Shown: positions 24,169 to 37,531 of the stretch, piece after piece
How positions within the stretch are numbered: the stretch's first letter is position 1
Layout of the letters: each line of letters begins with the position of its first letter
Source: Syncephalis plumigaleata
Lineage: Eukaryota > Zoopagomycota > Zoopagomycetes > Zoopagales > Piptocephalidaceae
Assembly: GCA_025201365.1 (NCBI GenBank)
Contig: JAIXMF010000020.1
Location: forward strand, 308,953-372,952
Direction: 5' to 3'
Length of the DNA: 64,000 nt
Translations under genes and position numbers: made by a program
Notes under the pieces: generated by a model
The model's input: the letters and a program-made list of their open reading frames with translations, nothing else
Databases searched by the model: none
Told to the model about the DNA's origin: nothing

Positions 24169-24184
24169 AATTTAAAATCGCGCC

Positions 24185-24500
24185 TTTTTTTTTTTTTTTT
24201 TCTTGTTAGAACATATTTGGCTATATGCCGTCTTTTATTATAAATGAATAAACCAGGGTTATAATAACAAACAATTGACAAACAGCCCAATGCCCACGGA
24301 ATGGAAATGTGTCTTGCGAGTGCAGACCACGGTTGTGTAGCAGAAAACCAACTAGCATATAGTCGGTAGGTTAATAAATGTCAACATTTCTGTTAACTAG
24401 TTAGAAATGATACCTTTTTCCCTATGACGGGATTGGCAGGAATCGAACCCAGGACCTATTCGTCCGAGAAATAGAGCGTAACCACTTGGCTACAACCCCA
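24185..24500 (-). mobile_element. tRNA-derived SINE, copy 1 (full length)
   Basis: About 316 bp on the minus strand. It has a tRNA-like head (GGGGTTG acceptor start, A box TAGCCAAGTGG, perfect B box GGTTCGATTCC), a ~210-bp unrelated body, the end TTCTAACAAG and a 17-A tail (plus-strand T run 24185-24201). It is flanked by a perfect 16-bp target duplication, 24169-24184 and 24500-24515. The tRNA-like part can fold with a 7-bp acceptor stem, but D and T stems are imperfect, so I read it as a pol III promoter head rather than a working tRNA. It differs from copy 2 at only a few positions. The target duplication lies 74-89 bp upstream of the tRNA-Ile gene, in divergent orientation. Confidence 0.92.
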
Positions 24501-24588
24501 ATTTAAAATCGCGCCGGACGCAGCGATTTTGGCGGTAAAAGGTGCATTTGCCGAGTGTGGTTCCTTTTTTGGCAAAAAATTTTGGTGC

Positions 24589-24685
24589 GCTCCCGTAGCT
24601 CAGCTGGTTTAGAGCGCCGTGCTTATAGGATATAAACTATACCAAAGTCACGCGGATGTCGCGAGTTCGATCCTCGCCGGGAGCA
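24589..24685 (+). tRNA. tRNA-Ile(UAU) with intron
   Basis: Acceptor stem GCTCCCG pairs with CGGGAGC, followed by discriminator A. A box TAGCTCAGCTGG and B box GAGTTCGATCC (one change from consensus) are present, and the D and T stems pair well. The anticodon loop reads CTTATA before an intron of about 20 nt (GGATATAAACTATACCAAAG) whose TATA can pair with the anticodon, as usual for eukaryotic pre-tRNA-Ile(UAU). A T run follows downstream (~24690-24710). Confidence 0.93.
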
Positions 24686-25614
24686 GCGTTTTGCTCCAGA
24701 AACGTATTTTTGTTAAACTTGCAAATACAGTTGTAATGGCATAGATATCTATGTAGCGTGCTTTACATTTTAGCATAGAGTAGTGTACGCAAATTAGTTG
24801 TATCTGCGGGCTTTATTTCGATCGAATTGCATTGTATAGTGCAATCAACCGTGGTTATTGTCATTACCAAATACCAAAGGTATTTACGTCACATAAACTT
24901 GCCTGTATTCTTTCCGTGCAATCAGTATTTTATTTAATTAATATGCTGGCGAAGGCAATACGTATCAACATAACAATGATATAGGCCAGCAGCCTACCGA
25001 TCTGTCTGACAACTAATATGGCAATGCAGTCGAGGTAGCTACGTGGATATATTTACATTGACAACAGGCGAATTAATCGATCGACCACTTGATGGTATAG
25101 GCATGACATGTCGTCGTTTACTTTTTGTTATAAAGCATAGATCATACATTGTATTACAAGTAGCACGCAGAGAATGTCAATATATCGGATGGTTTATACG
25201 CAATCAACCCTACGCGAATTGTATGGCCTACTTCGATTAGTGTGCATCACATATTATCACTAGAATATAACTTGGAAATATGTGTGGAAACAAAACTGGA
25301 CTGTTGTTCTCCTTCCCCAATTTCTAATCTATAGTAGCACCGACTTTTTTCTTTTGTAACATTGTCAAGCTTGCTGAAGCGTTGTACCCATCATTACCGT
25401 TGGATCGTCGCCACGCTCGTCTCCTAGTACTTTGTTGTTGTTGTGCGCTATCAAGTACAGTTGCTTGCCCCCCTGCACGTGGGTGCAGCACGTAGTCACG
25501 CTTTATCTTGTATTTTCAGAGTCGCACTTGTCGTCAAACGTATACTTGTCTGCATTTCTCCCGTTATTTACTCGTCGCGTTGACTTGATTCTACCCCATT
25601 AGGCCGCAACAGCA
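24686..25614. other. Upstream region of the myotubularin gene; no convincing gene
   Basis: A 65-codon frame at 25043-25240 exists but I cannot tie it to any family or neighbour. 25310-25600 is pyrimidine-rich with CGTC and ACTCG words like the 22.4-kb tract, and probably is the promoter and leader of the next gene. Confidence 0.5.
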
Positions 25615-36909: not shown

Positions 36910-36982
36910 CGAGCAAACCAGGACTCGAACCTGGAATCTTTCGATCCGAAGTCGAACGCCTTATCCATTAGGCCATATGCCC
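36910..36982 (-). tRNA. tRNA-Arg(UCG)
   Basis: 73 nt on the minus strand. The core TGGCCTAATGGATAAGGC (A box) and anticodon loop CTTCGGA match eukaryotic tRNA-Arg(UCG) closely. The T arm CAGGTTCGAGTCCTG contains the B box GGTTCGAGTCC, and the discriminator is G. The acceptor stem GGGCATA/TTTGCTC has one U-U mismatch at position 6 and one G-U pair. No intron. Confidence 0.92.
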
Positions 36983-37070
36983 CATAAAATGGAGGGTATT
37001 TTCACCTATATATTCCAAACAGTGAAAAGTGACTGCTTTTCCAAAAATACTGAAATTTACTGAAATTTAC

Positions 37071-37384
37071 GAGGATGGGGTTGTAGCCAAGTGGTTACGC
37101 TCTATTTCTCGGACGAATAGGTCCTGGGTTCGATTCCTGCCAATCCCGTCATAGGGAAAAAGGTATCATTTCTAACTAGTTAACAGAAATGTTGACATTT
37201 ATTAACCTACCGACTATATGCTAGTTGGTTTTCTGCTACACAACCGTGGTCTGCACTCGCAAGACACATTTCCATTCCGTGGGCATTGGGCTGTTTGTCA
37301 ATTGTTTGTTATTATAACCCTGTTTAATTCATTTATAATAAAAGACGGCATGTAGCCAAATATGTTCTAACAAGAAAAAAAAAA
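37071..37384 (+). mobile_element. tRNA-derived SINE, copy 2 (full length)
   Basis: Same family as the copy at 24185-24500, opposite orientation. GGGGTTG starts at 37077, preceded by GAGGAT. A box TAGCCAAGTGG and B box GGTTCGATTCC are intact, and the end is CTAACAAG plus about ten A. An 18-bp target duplication flanks it (37053-37070 and 37382-37399, sharing a few bases with the A tail). The two copies differ at a handful of positions over ~295 bp, so both are young. The target duplication lies 71-88 bp upstream of the 5' end of tRNA-Arg and the SINE points away from it, the same geometry as copy 1. Confidence 0.92.
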
Positions 37385-37407
37385 TTTACTGAAATTTACT
37401 AAAGATT

Positions 37408-37531
37408 GAGGATGCTGTTGTAGCCAAGCGGTGCAGCACCATTCCTCGGACCAAGAGAGTCCTGGGCCAGTACTCGTCGATCCCTTCAAGAGGAAAAGGT
37501 ATCAAGGTTGATCACTAACAAGCATACTCGC
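37408..37531 (+). mobile_element. Older, shortened SINE relative next to copy 2
   Basis: It begins GAGGATG and GTTGTAGCCAAG like copy 2, keeps TCGGAC, GTCCTGGG and AAAAGGTATCA blocks, and ends CTAACAAG like the full SINE but without an A tail. The B box is degenerate and about 190 bp of body is absent. Removing copy 2 and one target duplicate places its start about 97 bp upstream of tRNA-Arg, the same side and orientation. Probably an earlier insertion into the same site. Confidence 0.65.

Follow-up and report, generated by a model that had tools for sequence, protein, structure and literature searches.

We analysed a stretch of 64,000 nucleotides from the small soil fungus Syncephalis plumigaleata (Zoopagomycota; GenBank assembly GCA_025201365.1, contig JAIXMF010000020.1, positions 308,953 to 372,952; hereafter the window), in which a tRNA-Ile gene and a tRNA-Arg gene each have a copy of the same short interspersed element (SINE) a short way upstream. 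The element, SINE A, is ~304 bp long; it begins with GAGGATGGGG, continues as a tRNA-like head, and ends in CTAACAAG followed by oligo-A. By its sequence features SINE A is a tRNA-derived SINE: it has the tRNA-like head, with an A box (TAGCCAAGTGG) and a B box (GGTTCGATTCC) that were identified by eye, the oligo-A, target-site duplications (TSDs), and a tail shared with a long interspersed element (LINE). The head falls below the gathering score of the Rfam tRNA model. A relic of an older SINE lies behind the copy at tRNA-Arg, and once that copy and one TSD are subtracted, the relic would start ~96 bp upstream of the gene. Coordinates are collected in the table.

Table. Features of SINE A and its targets in the window, and copies of the LINE LD with nearly the same 5′ end elsewhere in the assembly (query 761-763)
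Feature	Position	Strand	Remarks
TSD of SINE A copy 1, distal	24169..24184		16-bp direct repeat with 24500-24515 (15 bp by script)
Oligo-A of SINE A copy 1	about 24185-24201		on the 3′ side of copy 1
SINE A copy 1	24202..24500	-	element positions 6-304, first 5 bases absent; 99% identical to copy 2
TSD of SINE A copy 1, tRNA side	24500..24515		-74 to -89 from tRNA-Ile
tRNA-Ile(TAT), target of copy 1	24589..24685	+	intron-containing; Rfam RF00005, 54.5 bits; ARAGORN -i
tRNA-Arg(TCG), target of copy 2 and relic	36909..36982	-	Rfam, ARAGORN
TSD of SINE A copy 2, tRNA side	37053..37070		-71 to -88 from tRNA-Arg; 18-bp repeat with 37382-37399
SINE A copy 2	37071..37374	+	full length (GAGGATGGGG...CTAACAAG), then oligo-A
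tRNA-like head of SINE A	37076..37150	+	ARAGORN: tRNA-Pro
3′ tail of SINE A, LB-like	37264..37374	+	78% match to LB 3′ end; last 13 bases identical
TSD of SINE A copy 2, distal	37382..37399		18 bp
Older SINE relic	37408..37504	+	76% to SINE positions 1-98; orientation as copy 2
LD copies ending at query 761-763	C112:233645, C223:517345, C94:9518, C251:109, C24:263678, C46:637335, C290:39248, C380:13926		

We searched the whole assembly (32.6 Mb in 383 contigs, the window being C113:308953-372952) with SINE A. The search gave 45 high-scoring segment pairs (HSPs), and 40 of 43 candidates were scored: 33 are copies with the normal tail, four have the same head and another tail, and three (two heads of a second element, SINE D, and one fragment on C380) are not SINE A and were dropped from the counts. 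Genes for tRNA and 5S within the fetched SINE loci were called by Rfam and ARAGORN, with introns allowed. The genome-wide tRNA list is not complete, since 63 of 956 candidates were scored, and all counts below that refer to a listed unit rest on this list.

Two-thirds of the normal-tail copies (22 of 33) lie directly upstream of a gene transcribed by RNA polymerase III (pol III), 20 at tRNA genes and two at 5S genes, and their orientation is the same in all 22: the head faces the gene. Seven more belong to stacks of insertions that could be resolved, three to stacks that were not followed to a tRNA, and one has no pol III gene. TSDs of at least 14 bp flank 30 of the 33. In 19 copies the gap between the first base of the SINE and the tRNA is 88-106 bp (mean 93.6, SD 6.2); at the two 5S genes it is 75 and 83 bp. 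The 20th tRNA copy, L025, was omitted from the mean: its apparent gap is 175 bp because ~84 bp of extra sequence stand between the head and the duplicated site; measured from the insertion edge, the gap is 91 bp. This stretch of foreign sequence (L025:1805-1888) may stem from template jumping at the 5′ end. A tRNA transcript begins about 10 bp ahead of the mature end, according to the relevant part of a published account (PMC5911963), so the tRNA and 5S gaps roughly agree when counted from the start of transcription. The 20 tRNA targets comprise 17 anticodons. If 250 pol III units are assumed, a random insertion would follow the rule with P = 1.6e-4, and at least 22 of 33 would do so with a probability of about 4e-76.

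These data extend what the first-pass annotation had proposed for the window, where three of three events seemed to fit one rule, a score that chance or selection could also produce in a single window. Its TSD spans (-74 to -89 at tRNA-Ile, -71 to -88 at tRNA-Arg) were reproduced, and its distance of ~97 bp for the relic, in the same orientation, differs little from our recalculation. Across the assembly the rule covers the 22 direct copies and seven more after subtraction of later insertions; the proposed fixed orientation, head towards the tRNA, is that of every direct copy, and the copies are neither mostly away from pol III genes nor scattered in distance and strand. Two points about the site need amendment. 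The proposed distance of ~75-90 bp is right as the span of the duplicated site, while the insertion edge lies 88-106 bp from the mature tRNA. Also, tRNA genes are indeed struck, but 5S genes and SINE heads are struck too, at a similar distance, and for this reason what is targeted seems to be the pol III unit and not the tRNA gene itself.

A search for a LINE with the CTAACAAG 3′ end found one, LB. The full-length copy in L081 has an open reading frame (ORF) 1 of 554 amino acids, which has no Pfam match, and an ORF2 of 1317 amino acids with PF03372, PF00078, and PF13966 (endonuclease, reverse transcriptase [RT], and zinc finger) as its only Pfam matches and no RNase H. The SINE tail is 78-79% identical to the 3′ end of LB over ~120 bp in most HSPs, with the last 13 bases identical. 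A sister LINE, LC, has an ORF1 of 572 and an ORF2 of 1262 amino acids, the latter 49% identical to that of LB; the N-terminal 819 amino acids contain PF03372 and PF00078, and a C-terminal CCHC motif was seen by eye. In the Dictyostelium elements TRE5 and TRE3 (see below), ORF2 is reached by a -1 frameshift. The two ORFs of LB share a frame and are separated by a stop, and those of LC overlap in different frames. Six unnamed proteins (P0001-P0006), 41-60% identical to LB ORF2, group with LB and LC in one cluster. The 5′ untranslated regions of these LINEs are tandem arrays whose copy number differs between copies (L082, L011; L081 from 6454-6515 on; C35:189948-191003), with ~17 units of 43 bp for LC in C317 and LB units over ~1 kb in C35.

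For three of 15 LB edges the list contains a pol III unit no more than 120 bp away on the 5′ side; each of the three is in opposite orientation, with gaps of 85 bp (L081) and 83 bp (C223) from 5S genes and 94 bp from the first base of a SINE (C322). Five of the 15 lie in stacks, of which those at C79, C46, and C1:387806 are resolved and those at C112 and C290 are not. For LC, 26 5′ edges were used out of 30 places. We omitted C290, C199, and C320, whose 5′ ends were not read, and C1:245530, which in locus L044 proves to stand on the far side of a SINE that lies at a 5S gene; for C1:2430787 we used instead the 5′ end found in L033, presumed to be the same copy, and C341:10360 is perhaps the inner edge of a split copy. 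With the same limit of 120 bp, 11 of the 26 have a unit from the list on their 5′ side, in opposite orientation every time and at 73-99 bp; four more are in stacks. The 11 units are five tRNA genes, one 5S gene, three SINE heads that have no tRNA listed close by, and two B-box motifs alone. B boxes come from a pattern search (100 of 135 places listed) and a lone B box is weak evidence, since the pattern read backwards as a control matched 41 places. SINE A and the placeable LB and LC copies thus have a fixed distance in common, about 73-106 bp upstream, with the 5′ end towards the pol III unit; their insertions are bounded by duplications of mostly 14-20 bp with unrelated sequences. Because tail and site rule are shared, LB probably copies SINE A.

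The stacks show how later elements have come to separate a SINE from its gene, and where TSDs were read the nested order is established. At L047 a solo LTR (long terminal repeat) of 500 bp stands between the SINE and tRNA-Sec; at L011/L082 a full-length LC, with its TSD GCGGCGCCAGGCGACG at both junctions, stands before tRNA-Phe; and at L040 a piece of LC stands before tRNA-Val. The same tRNA-Val is the target at L040 and L039, where one SINE with an identical TSD at both ends is halved by the RT of an LTR element. The older copy at L045 is separated from tRNA-Ser by a piece of LB and a younger SINE, and its head adjoins the LTR site described below; it is the weakest of the seven resolved stacks, since it has no TSD. 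At L041 the SINE at 7000 would be 92 bp from tRNA-Leu if a later LTR were removed. Three further elements there, a SINE at 5855, an LB, and an LC, have their heads facing that SINE's head, with edges 94-98 bp away; their tails point to tRNA-Leu, and their placement is therefore explained by the SINE head and not by the tRNA. The window holds a gypsy-type element (15259-21171) with a dUTPase domain after RNase H, and an RT of equal score and frame length separates SINE A halves at C2:414258/421126. The tRNA at L047 (2735-2821; C65) is a selenocysteine tRNA (Rfam RF01852, 74.7 bits) in a zoopagomycotine fungus; in the excerpt of a review, seven of nine fungal users of selenoproteins are Harpellales.

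Copies with the SINE A head and another tail bear on which partner sets the site. L032, L033, and L048 keep SINE positions 1-205 and have a different tail ending in TCTC, and in L036 positions 1-159 are joined to the tail of a third LINE, LD. All four have TSDs (16-18 bp), and Rfam found no tRNA or 5S gene in the 2.8-5.0 kb fetched around any of them. The site of L036 looks by eye like the start of a short secreted-protein gene. Among the best 40 of 84 places matched by the foreign tail, none is within 1 kb of a unit on the incomplete list, except for the heads of those SINEs themselves. Since copies with the same head and other tails have no tRNA or 5S gene close by, the tail, i.e., the LINE, seems to choose the site.

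SINE heads, in turn, seem to be sites for later insertions. Seven heads have no listed tRNA or 5S gene within 1.5 kb; the neighbourhoods of five were read, and the other two, SINE D heads of which one is faced by LC, rest on the list. LC faces three of the seven, at 74, 75, and 86 bp, and at the SINE head on C351 the TSD of LC itself, CAACGTCAACATGA, is present on both sides. SINE heads are probably active promoters.

The third LINE, LD, has a C-terminal piece that is 46% identical to LB and 39% to LC, and it has a tail in common with SINE D in alignment. We used 45 of 48 LD rows, omitting two SINE D tails and C38 (5′ end outside the query); the row at C351 marks where the parts of a chimeric SINE meet and was not counted as an LD insertion. 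For five of the 45 rows a listed unit lies up to 200 bp away on the 5′ side, on the same strand in every case, at +88, +89, +94, +132, and +195. Two of five SINE D copies are at +70 and +83 from SINE heads, two are unplaced, and one, which sits inside LB 5′ repeats with a 5S gene 143 bp away and is upstream of that gene, contradicts a downstream rule. Most LD copies are unplaced, and the second LD at L031 (3132-3495), which has a clear TSD, does not fit such a rule. Copies at C46, C117, and C212 fit neither rule: they lie upstream, 267-281 bp from a tRNA or B box, and decayed SINEs in between may explain them. That LD and its SINE may insert downstream of pol III units is suggestive only. Eight LD copies end near query 761-763 (see table), more than random 5′ truncation would suggest. 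The idea that these are another SINE was dropped for the copy at L038, the only one read: it is a 5′-truncated LD with a TSD. The first-pass annotation had supposed a LINE machinery acting on the SINE. A partner with the same tail and site rule is there, copying by it remaining probable on those grounds; it is one of at least three related LINEs, one of them perhaps inserting downstream.

We put at about 0.82 the probability that SINE A and LB are a tail-sharing pair whose landing is guided by the pol III complex to a fixed distance upstream, and that landed SINEs become new targets. The LINE protein complex would be brought to the pol III transcription complex, most likely to TFIIIB as set by TFIIIC, and would then nick and prime at a set distance. 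The SINE would be delivered to a pol III site because its RNA carries the tail that LB recognizes; having landed, and being itself a pol III promoter, it would turn into a new target. Newer insertions would fall between older ones and the gene, so that arrays record their own order. We infer recruitment by the pol III complex, and with it a molecular contact.

A variant of this proposal, tentative but to be taken seriously, makes the guide the chromatin that pol III genes set up, either the first upstream nucleosome or a nucleosome-free gap, and not contact with TFIIIB. Yeast Ty1 inserts into nucleosomes upstream of tRNA genes, as the section of PMC5911963 on that element reports, and a nucleosome edge might account for a range of 73-106 bp; the comparable spacing at 5S genes and SINE heads is compatible with both guides. 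It is very unlikely, by comparison, that insertion was random and that a compact genome kept only the copies that did no harm, those beside tRNA genes. For gene-dense genomes, the neighbourhood of tRNA genes has been discussed as a safe place to integrate (PMC5006619, in the part concerned), but purifying selection fails to explain a standard deviation of 6 bp, the one orientation of all direct copies, or the LC copies that face SINE heads without a listed tRNA close by. Furthermore, the other-tail copies persist elsewhere, one of them (L036) apparently in the start of the secreted-protein gene.

Still a little less likely is a sequence-specific endonuclease that nicks a motif upstream of tRNA genes or in a tRNA-adjacent LTR. 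The LTR, 500 bp long (TGTAACG...GGATTACA, e.g., L047:2230-2729), is found in either orientation 5-27 bp upstream of tRNA genes (L001, L009, L015, L025, L041, L043, L045, L047), and eight SINE A copies, six direct ones and those at L005 and L042, use one site in it, TAGATTTGATCACGTGA; in the six direct cases beside a tRNA, the SINE strikes LTR position ~415-435. However, the remaining TSDs are unrelated, and a comparison of 18 TSD sites showed no common motif. At L043, moreover, the LTR is reversed and the SINE has struck a different sequence, at LTR position 46-61, and is still 88 bp from the tRNA; therefore distance, not sequence, decides. Duplication of whole tRNA neighbourhoods in place of insertion is the least credible account of the copy number, because the one flanking LTR sequence common to those eight copies is set against the 17 anticodons of the 20 tRNA targets and the 5S genes besides, differing oligo-A lengths and TSDs outside the LTR, and no other shared flank noticed by eye.

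The placement of this LTR element is itself Ty3-like: for 10 of 16 RT matches, taken as one family by score alone, there is a listed tRNA or 5S gene at 2.69-3.05 kb. The 5S genes are dispersed; we found 22 (among them those on C13, C1, C79, C143, C148, C223, C215, and C230, and at L044:1801-1998, L046:1591-1789, and L081:6601-6798), and 12 of the 22 sit 3-7 bp upstream of a same-strand tRNA, one of these recognized by its B box only. To judge by their layout, adjoining 5S and tRNA genes are arranged as if they were one transcription unit.

Several observations weigh against guided landing by pol III units as proposed here. In the 5 kb fetched around the normal-tail copy at L050 (C340:1090282) Rfam finds no pol III gene, and the 591 bp on its head side give only three weak, implausible matches at E ≤ 5. 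No TSD was found for the copy at L044 or the older copy at L045, and the TSD of the copy at 7000 in L041 is imperfect, with 9 bp only. The stacks at L005, L035, and L042 were not followed to a tRNA, and L042 is rearranged. Seven of 15 LB 5′ edges and 11 of 26 LC edges have no pol III unit in the list, many LINE copies being unplaced because that list is incomplete. The tail-swap set is small (n = 4). One of the three heads faced by LC, C1:2462207, was placed from the list without its sequence being read, and that LC landed after the isolated SINEs is presumed. Finally, the case is known from the genome alone and not from transcripts, protein contacts, or fresh insertions.

The closest known system is that of the Dictyostelium elements TRE5 and TRE3. 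As described in the sections of PMC5911963 and PMC5391098 on these elements, TRE5 has two ORFs, with an APE endonuclease, an RT, and a zinc finger in ORF2, and inserts 40-54 bp (elsewhere given as 44-54 bp) upstream of tRNA genes in opposite orientation and 37-41 bp from extrachromosomal 5S genes; it also strikes 5S genes and loci with A and B boxes but no tRNA gene. The B box is needed, and ORF1 binds TFIIIB subunits, in the corresponding sections of these papers and of PMC5006619. The architecture of LB and LC and their opposite orientation upstream agree with those of TRE5 (TRE5-A) as there described. The differences are the distance (73-106 bp here), the fungal host, and a SINE partner that follows the same rule. 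TRE3 is reported 40-150 bp downstream in the same orientation (PMC5911963, section on TRE3). The LD and SINE D copies placed within 200 bp resemble it in being (bar one SINE D) downstream in the same orientation, at +70 to +195, but the placed cases are few (five LD, two SINE D) and some LD copies do not fit.

Other elements share parts of this habit. Ty3, S. japonicus Tj1, and Dictyostelium DGLT-A lie close upstream of pol III genes (PMC5911963 and PMC4600332, as excerpted); in contrast to SINE A and LB, they are LTR retrotransposons with integrase. The eel LINE/SINE pair is similar in that the SINE shares the LINE 3′ tail and hence its machinery, and the Entamoeba pair in its reported insertion at common target sites, but the excerpts on these two pairs mention no targeting of pol III genes. 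Other non-LTR elements, such as Dewa, insert inside tRNA genes, which is a different habit. Limited searches of the open-licence literature in PMC turned up neither a SINE nor a fungal LINE with such targeting, and targeting of tRNA genes of the TRE type has been called unique to dictyostelids (PMC5006619, in the passage concerned).

One head with three kinds of tail offers a natural test beyond what LINEs alone would allow: LB-tailed copies follow the rule, unlike the four others, which makes target choice separable from transcription. If SINE heads are targets, a genome would display what was inferred for isolated A and B boxes in Dictyostelium (PMC5391098, in the part on such loci), and nested arrays at tRNA flanks yield a relative order of insertions. 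We consider it slightly better than an even chance that the whole is a self-extending landing system, in which a small clade of LINEs uses opposite sides of the pol III unit (LB and LC upstream, LD downstream), LB and LD have SINEs, the SINE tail sets the target, and SINE heads supply new sites. If so, LINEs targeted to pol III units can move out from tRNA genes, and the system would mirror the TRE5/TRE3 pair outside the dictyostelids. If fungi do have a group of LINEs with this geometry, it would mean an independent origin of the habit, or else be evidence of a greater age of the trait.

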